This document shows, in pieces, positions 2,115 through 10,338 of a stretch of DNA of 64,000 nucleotides; positions within the stretch are counted from its first letter, which is position 1, and every line of letters starts with the position of its first letter. The translations under genes and the position numbers were made by a program. This DNA comes from Acidobacteriota bacterium (GTDB lineage Bacteria; Acidobacteriota; Terriglobia; Bryobacterales; Bryobacteraceae), in the NCBI GenBank assembly GCA_025352795.1, contig JANXSF010000028.1:1-64000 (forward strand), read 5' to 3'. The notes beneath the pieces were generated by a model. It was not told the origin of the DNA. It saw only the letters and a program-made list of their open reading frames with translations, and did not search any database.

Positions 2115-2545
2115 ATGAAATACTTCACTGCGCTACTCATAGCCTGCGCCATCCCAGCTTTAGGACAGACTCCACCGCCGCTAGGCTAGGCTTGTCCTGC
2201 ACTATCGTCGATACGGCACCAAAATTCTTTAGCCTCGAAGGCTTCACAGAATCGACTTCTTGACGTTGTCTTACGGTGCCAAAGGAGGCACCTCAACCCC
2301 TGCCGGACAACCCATCCCAACAGTGACGTTTCGGGCCTACCTCAATATTAACCTCACCACCCGCTTACTTGCCACATCGCCAGACCTTTTCGGAGCACTC
2401 TTACTCGTCGACGAACCAACCCCCCTAAATCTGGGATGGGATCTTGAAGTGCGAGAGAGATGGCACCATTAAGGTCCAAACCACGGTACTTCCGGACCGT
2501 AAGAAATGCACGTTGCAAACCGAGGCCCGCCTGCATGCACGATGA
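2115..2545 (+). pseudogene. Remnant of a secreted Acidobacteria-type protein
   Basis: An ATG at 2115 opens a clear signal peptide (MKYFTALLIACAIPALGQ) that stops after about 24 codons. Downstream, in other frames, are pieces such as LTLSYGAKGG, FRAYLNINLTTRLLATS and ALLLVDEPTPLNLG (about 2260-2430), then CERDGTIKVQTTV (about 2450-2490). The LL(V/I)DEP pattern recalls a secreted beta-rich protein type common in Solibacter-like genomes; that is recognition from memory. Several stops and frame changes separate the pieces, so this is a dead gene. Confidence 0.5.
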
Positions 2546-2594
2546 AGAAGGTTCCTCCTAAATGGCGATTCGCTTCAGTTTACACTGGGTTTAG

Positions 2595-2870
2595 CTGCGT
2601 TCCACTATCAAGTATTGGACCATAGCGTCCGGCATGTTGATGGGCGCATCGATAGCAACGGTCTGGAGAATTTCTGGTTTCTCTTGAAGCACGGAGTCAA
2701 TGGAACATATGTTTCAGTTAAGTCTTTATATTTACTTACCTTGACGAGCAAGCCCATCGGTTTAATTGTCGAAAGTACAAAATGGGGGCGATTCAGTTTG
2801 ACCGTGGGGCTGGCGTTGTTGAAAGCGCGTTGCGGCGTTCAGGGAACTAACTGGGAAGAGGGAAGAATGA
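2595..2870 (+). pseudogene. IS1595/ISXO2-type transposase C-terminal remnant
   Basis: The frame from about 2600 gives DGRIDSNGLENFWFLLKHG then VNGTYVSV, the signature around the final catalytic N/E-x-FW segment of IS1595 (ISXO2-like) transposases, normally H-T-N-G-I-E-N-F-W-S-L-L-K-R-G-x-x-G-T-Y-V-S-V. After a frameshift near 2720, another frame continues TYLDEQAHRFN, then GRFSLTVGLALL, as the family C-terminus does. The N-terminal two thirds, with the catalytic Asp residues, is missing and no terminal inverted repeats were found, so the element is dead. Confidence 0.72.
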
Positions 2871-3116
2871 AGATAACGTGTAATCCCTTCCCTACTGAAA
2901 ACCAGGAATAGGCTCGAAGGTCCGAGCGGAAAGAAGCAACGGTATTAAGTTAAGGTATTGGTTAGTATCAACATCGGGGGGTAAGGGGTAATGAAACGTC
3001 GTAAGCGTGCAGGTATAAATTAAAAGTTTTGCGTTGCTTTTGCCCTCCCAAGCGTCATACTGTATCAGGAGTTGAAGATTAATCTTCGCTATTTGTGTTA
3101 ACTGAGGAGGTTTGTT
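2871..3116. other. Intergenic stretch after the transposase remnant
   Basis: No gene, RNA or terminator is recognisable here. A strong AGGAGG at about 3105 belongs to the next gene, which starts at 3117. Confidence 0.5.
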
Positions 3117-3662
3117 ATGGTGGCGCAGGAGGAAGAAGACAAATTCAGAGAGCTCATTCTGTATATCAGCCAGAGGTGTGCGTCCGATCCGAAGTTCGGC
3201 GCAACGAAGCTCAATAAGATTCTACTTTATGTTGACTTCTTTTCGTTTGGAAAGACCGGGAAGGCGATAACTGGTTTTGAATACCAGCATTTACCTAACG
3301 GACCAGCACCACGAAAACTTTTGCCGGTAAGGGAGAAGATGATCAAGGAAGGGATATTGGTGCTGCAGGAGGTTCCCCTTATGAGTGGGAAAACTCAAAA
3401 AAGAACCGTAAACTTGCGTTCGCCAAATCTGAAAATATTTTCTGGTGAGGAGATTGCTCTCGTAGATTTCATTATTGATGCACTCTCAGATTGCGATGCC
3501 AAAACCGTAAGTGACCTCAGCCATAGGATGATAGGTTGGCAAATAGCAACACAGGGAGAAACAATTCCCTACGAGACGGTTTTTCTCTCAAATGAACCGT
3601 TGACAGAAGCTGAAATTTCCAGGGGTCTTGAAATTGCAGCCAAAATCAACATTGCCGCCTAG
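3117..3662 (+). CDS. Panacea (SocA-like, DUF4065-type) domain protein, putative antitoxin
   Basis: A 181-residue cytoplasmic protein. The central pattern TKLNKILLYVDF ... GKAITGFEYQHLPNGPAPRK (residues about 30-65) is the core of the Panacea/SocA-associated domain, a promiscuous toxin-neutralising domain. The C-terminal part (SGEEIALVDFIIDAL ... LSHRMIGWQ ... GETIPYET) matches the usual tail of the variant found with small partner genes. AGGAGG lies 7 nt before the ATG. A small gene follows on the same strand after about 70 nt and is the natural candidate partner. Domain assignment is firm; the antitoxin role is inferred from the family. Confidence 0.8.
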   Translation: MVAQEEEDKFRELILYISQRCASDPKFGATKLNKILLYVDFFSFGKTGKAITGFEYQHLPNGPAPRKLLPVREKMIKEGILVLQEVPLMSGKTQKRTVNLRSPNLKIFSGEEIALVDFIIDALSDCDAKTVSDLSHRMIGWQIATQGETIPYETVFLSNEPLTEAEISRGLEIAAKINIAA

Positions 3663-3705
3663 GGGAATCGTCGAATAGCTAAAGTACGCAGCTCAACTCA
3701 AAGCA

Positions 3706-3921
3706 CTGAAAATTAAGCATCAAGATCTAGACGTGGCTTTCGAAAGAGTATCAATGGCACTTTGTATTAGGCCAGAGATTTTTCCTGAGTTATTAGATAC
3801 GGGTGTGCGTCGCCTAAGGATCATTGGCTATGGTAGGTTTCCAGATTTGGATGTATGGTTTACCTTCAATAGTGAAGAGGTTAAATTGCATTTTGTAGAG
3901 GTAGCCCCAGAGGAAGATTGA
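3706..3921 (+). CDS. Small partner of the Panacea gene, possible toxin
   Basis: Read from a GTG at 3733 this encodes 62 residues. However, the open frame extends upstream to a stop at 3676-3678 and gives further plausible sequence (LKIKHQDLD before VAFERVSMALCIRP) from a CTG at 3706. The ending DVWFTFNSEEVKLHFVEV resembles the last beta strands of small RelE/ParE-like proteins. There is no good ribosome-binding site for the GTG. The gene is just downstream of the Panacea gene and probably co-transcribed. The toxin role is inferred from position and shape only; the true start is unresolved. Confidence 0.5.
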   Translation: MKIKHQDLDVAFERVSMALCIRPEIFPELLDTGVRRLRIIGYGRFPDLDVWFTFNSEEVKLHFVEVAPEED

Positions 3922-4084
3922 AACTGGGGGACATTGAATGAAGCGCAGTCCCCAATATTCTTGGAAGCGCTCTGCACGATCATCGTGGTATCAAAAGCAA
4001 ATTTTTACAAGGTCTGCTGAATTTAGCACTGGGTTTGTCAACTATATTATTACCAACACTAGCCCGTTCCCACAAAAAACCAAT

Positions 4085-4114
4085 CAAACATTAACTTCTC
4101 ATAGGCGTTATAAT
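4085..4114 (+). promoter_or_regulatory. Candidate infA promoter
   Basis: A perfect TATAAT lies at 4109-4114, 45 nt before infA. A weak -35 (CAAACA, 4085-4090) sits 18 nt upstream. The rest of 3922-4158 holds nothing else recognisable. Confidence 0.45.
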
Positions 4115-4158
4115 CTAAAAGTCGCATCAGCGGCATATCAATCCAACACTGGGGGAGA

Positions 4159-4377
4159 ATGAGCAAGGAAGATAGTATCGAAGTTACAGGAACGGTGGTC
4201 GAAAAATTCCCATCGGGCCTGTTTAGTGTGCAATTAGATCAGGAACGCATTGTGCTGGCGCATTTGGCCGGTAAGCTACGCCGGAACCGCATCCGTGTAC
4301 TGGCTGGTGATCGCGTTACCATGGAACTCTCGCCGTATGATCTGACCAAAGGCCGTATTACCTACCGGCACAAATAG
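4159..4377 (+). CDS. infA: Translation initiation factor IF-1
   Basis: A 72-residue S1-like OB-fold protein of exactly the family length. It begins [20 protein letters not shown] and carries the IF-1 features [21 protein letters not shown] and a C-terminal [13 protein letters not shown]-1 binds the 30S A site and works with IF-2 and IF-3 at initiation. GGGGGAG directly precedes the ATG. Unlike the common arrangement it is not inside a ribosomal-protein operon here; it sits between a toxin-antitoxin-like pair and wecB, 22 nt before the latter, with which it may be co-transcribed. Confidence 0.97.
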
Positions 4378-4399
4378 CAGATCACACAAAACATCGGTT

Positions 4400-5524
4400 T
4401 TGCCCAAGAACGTTCTTTTCATCTTCGGAACCCGGCCTGAGGGCATAAAACTGTGTCCTCTTCTTAAAGAAATGGGCCGGCATCCCGGTCAATTTGAACC
4501 AATCGTCTGCGTCACCGGCCAGCACCGCAATATGCTGGATCAAGTGCTGCAAGCCTTCCACGTCAAACCCCAAATCGACCTGAATCTGATGCAGCCCGGG
4601 CAGACTCTGTTCGGCTCCACATCCCGAATTCTGGCCTCCCTGGAACAGGTTTTTGCCGACCTCAAACCCGATATGACCGTGGTTCAGGGTGACACCACCA
4701 CCACATTCACTGGCGCTCTAGCCTCGTTTTACGCCAAAGTTCCCATCGCCCACGTGGAAGCAGGTCTGCGTACTTTTGATCTGCAACAGCCGTTTCCCGA
4801 AGAGGCCTACCGCGTGCTCACCGCCCGCATCGCCACCCTGCATCTGGCCGCCACCGAAGGTGCGGCACAGAACTTACGACGCGAAAACGTGGACCCCGAA
4901 ACGATTTTCGTCACCGGCAACACTGGCATTGACGCCATTCTTTTTATCAAAGAAGAACTGGAAGCAGGCCGCCTGCAAGGTCTGGCTTGGCCCCACCTTA
5001 ATCCCAGCAAGAAACTAATCCTAGTCACCGCCCACCGTCGCGAAAATCATGGCCAGGGGTTCATCCACATCTGCCAGGCATTGCTGAAACTCGCCGACCG
5101 CGACGATGTGCAATTCATTTACCCCGTCCACCCCAATCCGCAAGTGCAGCAGCCCGTGAACCACGCGCTGGGAGGGCATCCGAACATCCACTTGTGCCCC
5201 CCTCTCGATTACATTCCTTTTGTCGACCTCATGCGCCGCGCCTATCTGCTCATCACCGATTCCGGCGGCGTTCAGGAAGAAGGGCCGTCTCTCGGTAAGC
5301 CCATTCTGGTGCTGCGCGAAAAGACGGAGCGGCCGGAAGCCGTCGAAGCAGGAACGGTGCAGTTGGTAGGCACCAATCCCGCCCGCATCATCGCCGCAGC
5401 TGAGCATCTGCTGAACCATCCTGAAAGCCGTCAAGCCATGACCCGCATCCACAACCCTTATGGCGATGGTCACGCCAGCGCCCGCATCTGCACCGCAATC
5501 AACCAATATTTCGCCAGCCGCTAA
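4400..5524 (+). CDS. wecB: UDP-N-acetylglucosamine 2-epimerase (non-hydrolysing)
   Basis: A 374-residue cytoplasmic enzyme that interconverts UDP-GlcNAc and UDP-ManNAc for surface polysaccharide synthesis. Family hallmarks are present: FIFGTRPEGIKL at the N-terminus, VTGQHRNMLDQ, VQGDTTTTF, HVEAGLRT with the Glu/His pair, TAHRREN, and DSGGVQEEGP for UDP binding near the C-terminus. Length is normal. Translation begins at TTG 4400, just after infA. No other ManNAc genes are adjacent. Confidence 0.95.
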   Translation: MPKNVLFIFGTRPEGIKLCPLLKEMGRHPGQFEPIVCVTGQHRNMLDQVLQAFHVKPQIDLNLMQPGQTLFGSTSRILASLEQVFADLKPDMTVVQGDTTTTFTGALASFYAKVPIAHVEAGLRTFDLQQPFPEEAYRVLTARIATLHLAATEGAAQNLRRENVDPETIFVTGNTGIDAILFIKEELEAGRLQGLAWPHLNPSKKLILVTAHRRENHGQGFIHICQALLKLADRDDVQFIYPVHPNPQVQQPVNHALGGHPNIHLCPPLDYIPFVDLMRRAYLLITDSGGVQEEGPSLGKPILVLREKTERPEAVEAGTVQLVGTNPARIIAAAEHLLNHPESRQAMTRIHNPYGDGHASARICTAINQYFASR

Positions 5525-5666
5525 ACATCCAGTCACAAGCATAGGGCTGTGTTGTGGTCACTGTTGCAATTCCTTCATAATCTGTTAACTTTTCAAGACA
5601 TAAATTTCAAACCGCCGAGGGTAACTGCGCTCTAAACCGCCCTTTCACCGTTGGATTTCGATTTCA

Positions 5667-6740
5667 TTGCCTAAACTTCCTGCTGTGAGAAACATTCCTT
5701 CAATCTTGAGAAATCGACGCTCGGGTGAACTGGGTGAACCAAACTGGATTGACCAGTTGCACGCAAAAGTGGTTGGCCAAACCGAAGGCCTGGCCTCAGT
5801 GGTCCCTTACGTGCAAATGTATCAGGCCGGGCTTGCTCCACAGGGTCGTCCAGTGGGCGTATTTCTCCTTTTGGGCCCCACAGGCACTGGCAAAACTCGA
5901 ACGGTGGAAGCGCTGGCGGAAGTGCTGCATGGCAGTGCCAAACATGTGCTGCGCATTGATTGCGGGGAGTTCCAAATGGAACATGAAGTGGCCAAGCTCA
6001 TCGGCGCACCTCCCGGCTACCTGGGCCATCGTGAAACGCAGCCCATGCTGACCCAAATGAAATTGAACGCCGTCACCAGTGAAAAGCTGAACTTATCTAT
6101 CGTGCTGTTTGACGAAATTGAAAAAGCCGCCGGATCGATGACCCGTCTGCTGCTAGGCGTGCTCGATAAAGCAACGCTACGGCTGGGCGACAACACTTCT
6201 GTAAACTTCGACCGCAGCCTAATCTTCATGACCTCAAATCTGGGAGCAAGGGAAATGGCTCGGGCCATGACTCCTGATTTCGGTTTTGAAGCCATGGTCA
6301 CGGACAACATCGCCACCACCGGCAGCTCGGGAGCCAACAAACTGGAAGCAGTCTGCCTGGCTGCGGTGAAACGGAAGTTTTCACCAGAATTCATCAATCG
6401 GGTAGACGTGATGGCGACATATCATCCATTGGGTCGAACTTCGATGGAGCAGATTTTGGACCAGCAATTGACCATATTGCAAGACCACATAGATCGCCGA
6501 TTAGCAGAACGAAGTTTCAAGATTTCAGTGCCGAAATCAGCCCGTGAATTTCTGCTGAATAAAGGAACCAGCAAGGAATATGGAGCACGCGAATTGAAAC
6601 GAGTAATTCATCGTTTCGTGATGCAACCATTGGCGGCAATGGTGAGCGACGGGCAGATTGAGGCTGATTCAGAGGTGGTGCTGGAAGTAGATGCTGGGAG
6701 GGAGCGGCTGATTTTGAGGCCAACGCAGCGGGCGGCTTAA
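5667..6740 (+). CDS. Stand-alone AAA+ ATPase of the Clp D2 type
   Basis: 357 residues with one ATPase module like the second domain of ClpA/B/C. Walker A GPTGTGKT is near residue 70, the pore-type loop APPGYLGH near 114, Walker B IVLFDEIEK near 150, sensor-1 FMTSNLGA near 188, and an arginine-finger-like RKFSPEFINRVD near 235. A C-terminal D2-small domain carries sensor-2 GARELKRVI. There is no N-domain and no D1 domain, so the length is less than half of ClpB. The IGL/F-type loop for ClpP docking was not seen. Start is TTG 5667. Its partner and substrates are unknown. Confidence 0.85.
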   Translation: MPKLPAVRNIPSILRNRRSGELGEPNWIDQLHAKVVGQTEGLASVVPYVQMYQAGLAPQGRPVGVFLLLGPTGTGKTRTVEALAEVLHGSAKHVLRIDCGEFQMEHEVAKLIGAPPGYLGHRETQPMLTQMKLNAVTSEKLNLSIVLFDEIEKAAGSMTRLLLGVLDKATLRLGDNTSVNFDRSLIFMTSNLGAREMARAMTPDFGFEAMVTDNIATTGSSGANKLEAVCLAAVKRKFSPEFINRVDVMATYHPLGRTSMEQILDQQLTILQDHIDRRLAERSFKISVPKSAREFLLNKGTSKEYGARELKRVIHRFVMQPLAAMVSDGQIEADSEVVLEVDAGRERLILRPTQRAA

Positions 6741-7188
6741 TAGGCTGGGGGGGCGCTGATATCTGATGTCGGCGACGGGGGTTAGCCGATTTTGCTGGGA
6801 CCCCGGAGTGAAGACAGTAATCTTCGGATCCAGCGACCGACTTAAAGACATTAATTTCCCGCTATGTGATGTGATATAGCAGACATGGAAGAACAAGGTA
6901 CTGAGCTCGAGACGTGTATTTTATAGTGATTTCAAGTCAACATTCCTCCCTAGAAAAGTTTGGAGGCAGAGGTCTTTGTCTCTTTAGCGCCCCAGTCCTC
7001 GCCAGCCAGCCAGATTCAAAGCGTTATGGACCACAGGCAATCACGCCTCTTTTGACGTACTGCCCAAGAGCGCGCGGACGGCGGAAATTGGCTCCGCCTC
7101 CATATTGATAAGATGAAACAGTGCAAGATCAGGCTGACCCAATTTTCCACAAGTATTTACTAAAGAATAAGACTCAGGAGGTCTTTCC
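6741..7188. other. Intergenic region, no gene recognised
   Basis: About 450 nt without a supported gene. A hairpin-forming ACGGCGGAAATTGGCTCCGCC-like inverted repeat lies near 7078-7100. An AGGAGG at about 7176 precedes the ATG at 7189 of the secreted-protein remnant. Confidence 0.4.
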
Positions 7189-7610
7189 ATGGCGCAAGTT
7201 TTATCGGTATACCAAACTACGCACCGTAGCCTACTAAGAGATTTATGTAGGAGATTCACGAGTCGTCACCTCCTTCGTGGAATCGTTAGCTTGGCTGTGC
7301 CGCTCTATCCGCTGTATCATCCCCAACAGGCCGCTGCGCAGCAAGAATGTGACCCCGCCGTCGCTGGTGAACATCTCGGTGAGCCCGCCAAGTGTCAATG
7401 TGGCGACCGGTCCCGCACCAGTAACCGTGACGACTCGGTTGACTGACGATTTGTCGGGCGTGCAGCAGTGGCTGGTGCAATTCAACAGTCCGTCCAGTAC
7501 TCAGTTCGTGCAGGTATTCGGTACGACGGGTCTGATTGCGGGCACCACGTCGAACGGGACGTTCCAAGGGACCTCACAAGTCCCACAATTCGCCGAGGCA
7601 GGAATCTTCT
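7189..7610 (+). pseudogene. 5' remnant of a secreted Ig-like domain protein
   Basis: A well-placed AGGAGG and ATG (7189) open a basic N-terminus followed by a hydrophobic signal-like stretch (LLRGIVSLAVPLYPLYHP) ending AAAQQ. At about 7345 the frame changes, and the sequence continues as VNISVSPPSVNVATGPAPVT, then LTDDLSGVQQW and VPQFAEAG. This is the strand pattern of Ig-like repeats in secreted Acidobacteria proteins. At about 7606 the similarity ends abruptly and the A/T-richer kinase region begins. No 3' remainder was found after the kinase/DUF3037 pair, so the gene is truncated. Confidence 0.55.
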
Positions 7611-7642
7611 CTCTAGCTAGTTTTTCCCGCATAAAAAATTTT

Positions 7643-8431
7643 ATGATTCCAACTTTTCAAGCTGTCCAGCTTCACCGCTTTATGGGGTCCGGGCGGACCA
7701 CTCCAGCTTTGTGTGGATGCGAAGATGAAAATGGGAAATTGGTTGGCGAGTTTGTGGTTAAGTTGCGAGGCGGCCTTGACCGCAACGTCACCGGGTTGGC
7801 TGCTGAACTTGTTGCAACTCAACTTGCGACATATTTCGGTATACCTGTCCCAGCTCCAGCACTTGTATCGATAGATGCAGAATTTGCGGATTTGGTAGCG
7901 TTGAGTTTTCCTGAGAAATCCAAACGGATCCGAGACAGTATTGGATTGAATTTTGGCTCTCGTCAACTGAGCGACGTGATTATATGGCCGGTGGATAAAG
8001 CGATCCCCGAAGCAATGTTGCAGACAGCCGTTTCCATTTTTGCCTTCGACGCTCTTATTGAGAACCCAGATCGCAAGTTCAGCCCTAATCCCAATCTGTT
8101 TATTCGGGGTGATACGATCTTCGTCTTCGATCATGAAGTGGCGTTCTCCTTCATAGAAGATATCTTTCCTTCGACCACTCCATGGAAATTAGATCGGGGC
8201 AACTATTTGTCCGATCACGTGTTTTTCAAACAGCTCAAAGGAAAAGACATTGATTTGAGCACGTTCACGAATCGGTTAGAACTATTGTCGGATACCGAAA
8301 TATCAAAGATCATGGCGGAAGTTCCAAATGAGTGGAACAATAGTAATTTGTCGAGGATCAGGGGCCACCTATCTGCGGTGGCCAGTCAGTCCGCGCTTTT
8401 TGCTGAGGAAATACGAAGGAGACTGGTATGA
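7643..8431 (+). CDS. HipA-like kinase family protein
   Basis: 262 residues from ATG 7643 (MIPTFQAVQLHRF). The frame is open back to 7277, but residues upstream belong to an unrelated secreted-protein remnant, so the long reading is artefactual. Kinase-like features: GEFVVKLRGGLDR with the ATP-binding Lys, AAELVATQLATYFGIPVP, a catalytic-loop-like FDALIENPDRKFSPNPNLFI (Asp/Asn residues), and VFDHEVAFSF as the metal-binding Asp. This matches the stand-alone HipA-like kinase family, shorter than true HipA and lacking HipB. Its stop overlaps the next start by ATGA, implying translational coupling to the DUF3037 gene. Confidence 0.78.
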   Translation: MIPTFQAVQLHRFMGSGRTTPALCGCEDENGKLVGEFVVKLRGGLDRNVTGLAAELVATQLATYFGIPVPAPALVSIDAEFADLVALSFPEKSKRIRDSIGLNFGSRQLSDVIIWPVDKAIPEAMLQTAVSIFAFDALIENPDRKFSPNPNLFIRGDTIFVFDHEVAFSFIEDIFPSTTPWKLDRGNYLSDHVFFKQLKGKDIDLSTFTNRLELLSDTEISKIMAEVPNEWNNSNLSRIRGHLSAVASQSALFAEEIRRRLV

Positions 8432-9270
8432 GGACCCCATATAGTTTCAGTGTCTTGCGATATATCCACGATCCTGTGACACAGGAGTTCGTAAACATTG
8501 GCGTTGCCGTATACTGCCAGCAAGCTGGATTTCTTCGTGCCATTTGCACTACTAACTATGGGCGAATCCGGGTCACGTTTACGAAGATCGACGGTAACCG
8601 CTTCCGCCAACTTACGCGATATATCCAAGAACAGGTAAACGCGGTTGGCGAAAACCTTGCCGGAGAACTTCCGTTTGAGACAGGCAAAACCATTGAACAA
8701 CTTCTTGCAAGAGTTCTTCCACCTGACGACAGTACGATTCAATTCTCTAAACCAGCCGGAGTCGGTATTGCGCACGATCTTGAAAAGACTTTGAACGAAC
8801 TCTTTGACCGATATGTGCAACAGTACATAACTCCTTCGGATGCGTCGAGGAGAAGAGATGAAGATGTATGGAAGGTGTTTAAGGGACCACTTGAAAAGAG
8901 ACATCTCACTGAATATTTGAAGCCCAAACGAATCGTGGCCTCCAGCTACGACTATGAGTTTGATCAGGCCTGGAAAAATGAGGTTTGGCACGTGTACGAG
9001 CCAGTATCATTCGACATGGTTGATGCTGGATCAATTCTGGACAAGGCTAACCGTTGGGTCGGCCGTGCCACTAGTCTCAATGATAGTAGCGAAAACTTCA
9101 AGATTCACATGCTGTTGGGAGAACCGCAAGATGAGCGTCTGCAAAGCACATTCATTAAAGCCCAGAATATTCTGAACAAAATGCCCGGCCAGATAGAATT
9201 TATTGGAGAACGGGACGCCGAGGCATTTGCTGAAAAACTTGAATCGGAAGTTAAAGCCCATGGGCGATGA
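8428..9270 (+). CDS. DUF3037 domain protein, partner of HipA-like kinase
   Basis: 280 residues, no signal peptide or membrane segment. The N-terminal SFSVLRYIHDPVTQEFVNIGVAVY (residues about 6-28) is the typical DUF3037 opening, a predicted alpha/beta domain of unknown function. The rest is mostly helical with many charged residues. It overlaps the kinase stop by 4 nt. DUF3037 genes are recurrent neighbours of HipA-like kinase genes, so the two probably act together; whether as toxin-antitoxin, defence or signalling module is not known. Confidence 0.75.
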   Translation: MRTPYSFSVLRYIHDPVTQEFVNIGVAVYCQQAGFLRAICTTNYGRIRVTFTKIDGNRFRQLTRYIQEQVNAVGENLAGELPFETGKTIEQLLARVLPPDDSTIQFSKPAGVGIAHDLEKTLNELFDRYVQQYITPSDASRRRDEDVWKVFKGPLEKRHLTEYLKPKRIVASSYDYEFDQAWKNEVWHVYEPVSFDMVDAGSILDKANRWVGRATSLNDSSENFKIHMLLGEPQDERLQSTFIKAQNILNKMPGQIEFIGERDAEAFAEKLESEVKAHGR

Positions 9271-9501
9271 ATTGAAGCTAACTGTAAGTGACATCCAATC
9301 TCCAACAACGAGTCACAGTCGATTGGTCATAATCTAATATTCATCAGTCAATGCAAAATATGTGCGTTTCACAGTACTTTTAGCCACTTTCGGCAAACCT
9401 ACAGCGGGTGTCTGTTACTTACTTGAGAAAGTGCCTTTACAGCGGATGTTACACTGAACCATAACTAATTCAAACTAAGAAAACACCTACCGGCTGCCAA
9501 A

Positions 9502-10338
9502 TCAGAAGCTCGGGGACTTTACGCAACGCACGCACGATTTACCCAAGACATAATCTGTCCTCTGTTCCTGTGGCGACAGGACTGCTCGACAGTTGAAGCA
9601 TTCTACGTGACCAGCTTCGTTTAATTCCGGGGTTAATGCCACGCGACGGTCGAACACGAAGCAGTTTCCGTTATAGTGCGCGCCGCCAACTTCTTCGAAA
9701 TATTTAAGAATGCCGCCATCCAGTTGATACACGTTCTGAAAGCCATGCTCCTGCATGTAAAGTACCGCTTTTTCACAACGAATACCGCCTGTGCAGAAGG
9801 TGACAACAGTCTTATTGCGCAGGTCGTCTTCAAGCGCCCTCACGCGTTCCGGAAATCGGCCAAAAGATTTAATGCCTGGGTCTAGCGCACCGTCAAAAGT
9901 GCCGATGCTTACCTCAAATCCATTACGAGTGTCCAGCAACGCCACGGCACGACCGCTATCGTCATGACCCGCATCCAGCCAACGTTTTAGGTCAGTAGGT
10001 CGGACAGCCGGAGCGCGCTCCCCGATGGGGCGGACCTGGGGCTGGTGCATGGTGATGATTTCTTTTTTCAGCTTCACCAGCATGCGGTTAAAGGGTTGAT
10101 GATCGGACCAGCTTTCTTTGGGATGCAGATCGGCGAACCGGGCATCGGTTTTCAACCACTCGACCCAGGTGTTGAGCTTTTCCGGCTCTCCGGCCAGAAA
10201 CAGATTGATGCCTTCAGGAGCCAGCAGAATGGTGCCCTTCAGCCCGGCTTCCACGCAGGCAAGTCGCAGATGTACGCGCAGCTCAGCCAAGTGGTCGAGC
10301 TCAACAAAGCGGTAAGCTGAGATGTTCAAAAACTCCAT
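9502..10338 (-). CDS. trhO: tRNA uridine(34) hydroxylase, rhodanese family
   Basis: 278 residues from ATG 10338 (MEFLNISAYRFVEL); the frame stays open to 10455 but the family start is here. An N-terminal acylphosphatase-like domain (GLKGTILLAPEGINLFLAG) is followed by a rhodanese domain with catalytic Cys in FCTGGIRCEKA, then a C-terminal cysteine-rich tail (HVECFNCRAV ... CVRCVK). This is the YceA/TrhO layout. The enzyme hydroxylates wobble uridine to 5-hydroxyuridine, the first step to cmo5U/mcmo5U in tRNA. Confidence 0.93.
   Translation of the reverse strand: MEFLNISAYRFVELDHLAELRVHLRLACVEAGLKGTILLAPEGINLFLAGEPEKLNTWVEWLKTDARFADLHPKESWSDHQPFNRMLVKLKKEIITMHQPQVRPIGERAPAVRPTDLKRWLDAGHDDSGRAVALLDTRNGFEVSIGTFDGALDPGIKSFGRFPERVRALEDDLRNKTVVTFCTGGIRCEKAVLYMQEHGFQNVYQLDGGILKYFEEVGGAHYNGNCFVFDRRVALTPELNEAGHVECFNCRAVLSPQEQRTDYVLGKSCVRCVKSPSF

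Follow-up and report, generated by a model that had tools for sequence, protein, structure and literature searches.

In a draft genome of an Acidobacteriota bacterium (family Bryobacteraceae; assembly GCA_025352795.1, 6.05 Mb in 140 contigs), an open frame with an Ig-like segment continues without a stop into a HipA-like kinase gene, which overlaps a gene for a DUF3037 protein. The question raised by this locus is whether it encodes a secreted or surface domain joined to a kinase, or a separate gene pair standing behind the remains of another gene, and what function such a pair could have. The stretch analysed, called the window below, comprises 64,000 nucleotides (positions 1 to 64,000 of contig JANXSF010000028.1), and the features under consideration are the following.

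7189..7446, plus strand: start of a broken secreted-protein gene, followed by a signal-peptide-like stretch (ATG with AGGAGG upstream; signal peptide recognised by eye)
7238..7642, plus strand: open frame with an Ig-like (DUF7743-like) remnant, similarity from about 7340 to 7600–7640
7643..8431, plus strand: HipA_2 kinase (PDC-M66A), proposed toxin, 262 aa (Pfam, PADLOC profiles, alignment)
8428..8431, plus strand: ATGA overlap of the kinase and DUF3037 reading frames
8428..9270, plus strand: DUF3037 protein (PDC-M66B), proposed antitoxin, 280 aa (Pfam, PADLOC profiles), with the DUF3037 domain at residues 7–130 and a confidently modelled C-terminal alpha/beta domain at about 142–280

In our opinion, it is very probable that 7643–9270 is an intact PDC-M66 (HipAD-like) toxin–antitoxin defence operon and that the Ig-like stretch before it is an unrelated broken gene. 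The observations that carry this reading are family membership, intact frames, gene order, overlap, kept kinase columns, patchy distribution and varying neighbours.

The kinase/DUF3037 gene pair

When the frames were re-read, the kinase (ATG 7643 to 8431), the DUF3037 gene (8428–9270) and their ATGA overlap were found as given in a preliminary description of this DNA, and the overlap suggests translational coupling of the two genes. Pfam assigns the kinase ORF to HipA_2 (E 2.7e-22) and the second ORF to DUF3037 (E 6.5e-19). Both proteins match the PADLOC profiles of PDC-M66, a phage-defence candidate system, over nearly the full length, the kinase PDC-M66A (E 5.2e-68, profile positions 6–267 of 270) and its partner PDC-M66B (E 7.6e-80, 3–278 of 281), and the genes have the arrangement of this system, being adjacent, on one strand and with the kinase first. 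The DUF3037 protein is 56–72% identical to six relatives and the kinase 32–64% identical to the relatives aligned with it; the six close DUF3037 relatives in GTDB genomes all come from Bryobacterales, Acidobacteria or Candidatus Sulfopaludibacter MAGs. In an alignment of the window's kinase with four relatives, K40, N141, D143, R144, N149, N151, D163 and E165 are invariant, and these eight residues we take to be candidate active-site residues. Both genes of the pair look intact.

The structure model of the kinase (mean pLDDT 49) was too poor for a fold search or an active-site check. A sequence-profile search of the PDB gave one chance-level match for each of the two proteins and no solved structure for the kinase. 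No ribosome-binding site is visible by eye before ATG 7643, and the promoter scan found three sites against 3.1 expected, i.e., the chance level, so that expression of this copy is only presumed. The terminator scan gave none against 2.2 expected. A near-palindrome over the start codon, CATAAAAAATTTTATG, was considered as an operator and rejected, having by eye no counterpart within 150 bases upstream in six relatives.

The broken secreted-protein gene

It had been described that a secreted-protein gene with a good ribosome-binding site runs from 7189 through to 7606. This was not confirmed, as the frame of ATG 7189 stops at 7446 after 85 aa and the Ig-like segment sits in another frame, which has a stop just before 7238 and is then open to 8431, in frame with the kinase. 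Homologues of the Ig-like segment occur in 13 other genomes of the family (14 of 150 when that of the window is counted), and its match to Pfam DUF7743 (E 0.0007, 19.7 bits) is below the family cut-off of 27. Several homologues carry three Ig-like domains in a row, and in several (L066, L065, L040 and L067) the first domain, judged by eye, directly follows a signal-peptide-like stretch. Since these two parts are in different frames here, the reading frame of the remnant changes near 7340, through either a mutation or, in a draft assembly, an assembly error.

With a query extended to 7700, 16 of 21 sense-strand matches end at 7603–7639, one ends earlier and four end later (7648–7696, with 27–28% identity). 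It follows from these ends at about 7600–7640 that the gene has lost its 3' part and not its head; the protein earlier called decapitated is thus one with its head kept, its tail lost and, in addition, its frame shifted. The break in the remnant therefore falls close to, or exactly at, the point where its first Ig-like domain ends. Such a truncation is less easily explained by assembly error than the frame change is; a chimeric contig may nevertheless account for it. No 3' part of the gene was recognised in 9200–9520 in comparison with ten homologue loci, and the sole other match to the remnant in the window's own genome is marginal (E 0.08). Weak matches of its minus-strand frames to the same homologues (E 0.001–0.065) were taken as antisense noise.

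Possible insertion of the pair at this site

A defined insertion of the cassette into the secreted-protein gene would be compatible with the defence-operon reading. In its favour, the Ig-like similarity ends just before the kinase, and the pair is lacking in G001, a genome of the same genus. Against it stand the ends of the cassette: repeats of at least 14 nt in 6741–9600 comprise a direct pair (6844, 8243) and an inverted pair (7653, 8884), neither of which flanks the genes, and the 3' half of the secreted gene is not recognised downstream. No empty site was found either. In G001, two different contigs carry the orthologues of the left ClpB-like and right UPF0176/rhodanese genes, and each runs out (after 1.0 and 2.2 kb, respectively) without the pair; in G058 the flanking genes are likewise on separate contigs; an empty site is therefore undefinable in both genomes. 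Moreover, deletion, rearrangement or misassembly would give the same picture. Accordingly, of the insertion or recombination initially supposed, an insertion with identifiable ends was not borne out, and it is possible, a little short of probable, that the pair was inserted into precisely this gene.

Distribution among relatives

PDC-M66B matches were found in 28 of 101 genomes, including that of the window, five of them below E 1e-30, and PDC-M66A matches in 46 of 101, many of them weak. By profile, a PDC-M66A match lies upstream of PDC-M66B on one strand and within 514 bases in 17 of the 28 genomes, a count into which 29 of 57 kinase rows entered, the other 28 being on contigs without a PDC-M66B match. 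Four further loci (L008, L024, L027 and L028) have a kinase match upstream by tblastn, which brings the total to 21 of 28. The remaining seven genomes have no upstream kinase by profile or tblastn, or its last 40 residues alone (G019), and two of the seven, G080 and G019, have strong DUF3037 matches. These genomes without a whole upstream kinase count against the defence-operon reading.

Neither PDC-M66A nor PDC-M66B was matched in G001, the only genome of the same genus in the search; hence the pair is not a fixed locus at this site. The distribution is patchy and the neighbours vary between relatives, which supports a mobile, differently placed gene pair, as had been proposed. A complete kinase/DUF3037 pair was found at 1111–2762 of a 36-kb IMG/VR viral contig (L079), close to ORFs read by eye as lysis and tail genes, and a second viral contig (L080) carries a slice of the pair only. 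Four plasmid records matched, all below 60% identity, among them a Hymenobacter plasmid whose annotation at the match gives a DUF3037 gene and a HipA family kinase gene; phage records gave no match.

Several copies have decayed. The kinase of L036 is frameshifted; L033 contains a close DUF3037 relative without a kinase of its own; L064 (G080) is an orphan DUF3037 gene with a stop; and in L035, which has the same match figures as L007 and is probably one locus with it, what remains is the end of the kinase (40 residues) and residues 1–142 of DUF3037. That L036 and L033 have lost the kinase and kept DUF3037 agrees with the asymmetry of toxin and antitoxin, as seen in a handful of draft genomes.

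Relation to known systems and probable function

According to the available part of PMC12548924, the Retron-Sda1 operon contains a HipA/DUF3037 pair, identified by its authors as PDC-M66. The HipA kinase was required against phage Bas51, the RT and ncRNA were dispensable and deletion of DUF3037 was toxic (PMC12548924). The DS-6 system of E. coli is described as validated in the accessible text of PMC13092281 and as renamed HipAD in a separate paper cited there. Defence was lost when a predicted catalytic residue of its kinase was changed, AlphaFold3 predicts binding of the two DS-6 proteins, and for DS-6B AlphaFold3 models with DNA contact are given (ipTM 0.67) (PMC13092281).

Both window proteins match the two PDC-M66 models, adjacent and kinase first, and no essential difference from this system was found apart from the broken secreted gene that the window copy follows. 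With HipAD/DS-6, as far as the accessible text describes it, the pair shares a HipA-family kinase and a DUF3037 partner without similarity to HipB. DS-6B, likened here by description, is reported there with DUF3037 and DUF1829, whereas the window's partner matches Pfam DUF3037 only: DUF1829 gave no Pfam match up to E 10, and hhalign of shallow alignments, for which 5 of 61 genomes supplied DUF1829 proteins, gave a probability of 0.1 on a scale of 100. The Retron-Sda1 pair, also likened by its description in the available text, has the same two domains and defends without RT or ncRNA. The Sda1 arrangement itself differs in that no RT stands beside the window's pair: none was found in the seven ORFs of at least 250 aa between 4400 and 12139. 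The sole Rfam match in the window at the gathering score is 16S rRNA, a search in which retron ncRNAs may be missing from Rfam itself. Classical HipBA has in common a HipA-like kinase as presumed toxin; in contrast, the window's kinase matches the HipA_2 model only and its coupled partner is DUF3037. With a limit of E 0.1, its ORF matched HipA_2 and, weakly, DUF7743, but none of the classical HipA models.

The initial guess of a toxin–antitoxin or defence unit, with DUF3037 in the place of a HipB-type partner, agrees with the PDC-M66 profiles and with the pairs in the published text available. It is correct and not new, since this reading has already been published for such pairs. By analogy with these relatives, the kinase and the DUF3037 protein would be made together and form an inactive complex, in which the latter would bind the kinase and hold it back. 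Phage infection would free the kinase, which could then phosphorylate some target and bring about growth stop or death, i.e., abortive infection.

The surroundings of the pair bear on whether it might instead be a household regulatory module of kinase and partner, serving stress or metabolism and not phage defence. Three of six loci, with few ORFs sampled in each, have recognised defence genes next to the pair. The neighbours are an HsdR-type subunit and DarG in L031, a YhaV toxin in L062 (three of the four ORFs scanned there gave no match), and a type III methyltransferase, a PIN protein and a GajB/NERD-UvrD-like helicase in L033, where 2132–6167 holds a divergent HipA_2/DUF3037 pair, then the PIN protein and then the close DUF3037 relative. 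Among the few neighbouring ORFs scanned in L032, L034 and L036 there were no defence genes; a single ORF was scanned in each of L032 and L034, without a match, and L036 has a sigma-54 regulator and a histidine kinase as neighbours, as would suit a household role. The same can be said of the window, where few signs of a defence island are seen among the ORFs scanned: none of ten ORFs at 19.5–58.7 kb matches PADLOC below E 1e-10, and the matches of the AAA protein at 5667–6740 to PDC-M37B, DolB and other models (best E 5e-18) are taken as general AAA similarity. Besides the defence genes in half of the loci sampled, the patchy distribution, the copy on a viral contig, and the defence and toxicity of such pairs in the published text available (PMC12548924, PMC13092281) argue against the household role, and we regard it as quite unlikely.

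The long open frame

The Ig-like segment does run stop-free into the kinase frame, as had been noted, with the frame open over 7238–8431. In six other kinase loci (L031, L032, L034, L036, L062 and L003, with starts assigned by alignment), an ATG or GTG start codon stands at the matching place in every case, with 1–27 in-frame codons above it, and none of the six kinases has an Ig-like extension. The fused ORF is thus not a conserved protein, an outcome that, like the lack of a fixed locus at this site, favours the initial interpretation. At E 1e-3, loci L003–L036 contain no match to the remnant except in the window's own, L004, and in the longer locus L062 its match reaches E 0.77 only. When the 36-base leader was shuffled, 55% of the shuffles had no in-frame stop; multiplied by one third for the frame, this gives about 0.18. 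An open in-frame junction, expected by chance about once in five cases, is thus weak evidence of anything.

A real fusion of a secreted or surface Ig-like domain to the kinase, for which the stop-free frame and the lack of a visible ribosome-binding site at ATG 7643 could be cited, is extremely unlikely and best read as a reading-frame accident because the start with a ribosome-binding site is out of frame, the extension is absent from all six kinases compared, the remnant is not found beside the pair in the other loci searched and the junction can be open by chance. Automatic annotation, as had been warned, could be misled by this frame. Most likely, the kinase is translated from ATG 7643 as part of the defence operon, and not as a fusion.

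The C-terminal domain of the DUF3037 protein

In the AlphaFold model of the DUF3037 protein, only the part beyond about residue 140 is confident, with 10-residue pLDDT means of 81–95 in the C-terminal domain (about 142–280). The top four rows of the VIA-align search are BstEII, two Cdn1 entries and BsoBI, the best match having Z 8.1 over 124 residues at 3.7 A and 13% identity. This Z lies at the background of the tool, according to which models that lack a clear match usually reach a best Z of 7 to 8. These four, among 13 of 50 rows, are nuclease-fold proteins, judging by the entry titles. Of the others, 30 of 50 are G proteins or other GTPases and five ATP citrate lyases; these rows reflect a common alpha/beta arrangement and count against the nuclease reading. 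Foldseek found nothing below E 0.001 for the DUF3037 model. E191, in the strand 186–194, is invariant, and two places further on stands V or I, not K, in all seven rows, so that the domain lacks the lysine which an active nuclease should have.

It is conceivable, if rather unlikely, that the modelled domain has a restriction-endonuclease-like fold which lacks the catalytic lysine and senses nucleic acid, in which case the DUF3037 protein would do more than restrain the kinase, and the kinase toxin might be gated by DNA or RNA, perhaps that of a phage. The AlphaFold3 models of DS-6B in contact with DNA (PMC13092281) can be cited for this reading. As a separate observation, in L035 (4161–4702) and L080 (4618–5390), where only the end of the kinase is present, the DUF3037 match stops at residue 142–149, near the border of the DUF3037 and C-terminal domains.

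Other features of the window

The first 389 bases hold, on the minus strand, part of a 16S rRNA gene (Rfam), cut by the first base of the contig. A possible relic of an IS1595-type transposase lies at 2615–2911, with a weak Pfam match below the cut-off (E 0.0069). At 3117–3662 a Panacea-domain (SocA-like) antitoxin protein is encoded, which has no recognised toxin partner and no PADLOC match; the small ORF next to it (3733–3921) has no Pfam match at E 0.01. The gene of translation initiation factor IF-1 (72 aa, Pfam eIF-1a, E 2.5e-22) occupies 4159–4377, and the block 4151–4379, conserved in 97 of 121 genomes of the family and considered as a hidden RNA, proved to be this gene.

Conclusions

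Summarizing, an acidobacterial copy is added to a recently validated defence family. The locus also demonstrates how a cassette beside a broken gene results in a long open frame, by which annotation could be misled. The nuclease-like sensor, if true, would point to a way in which infection releases a HipA-type toxin that has no HipB.
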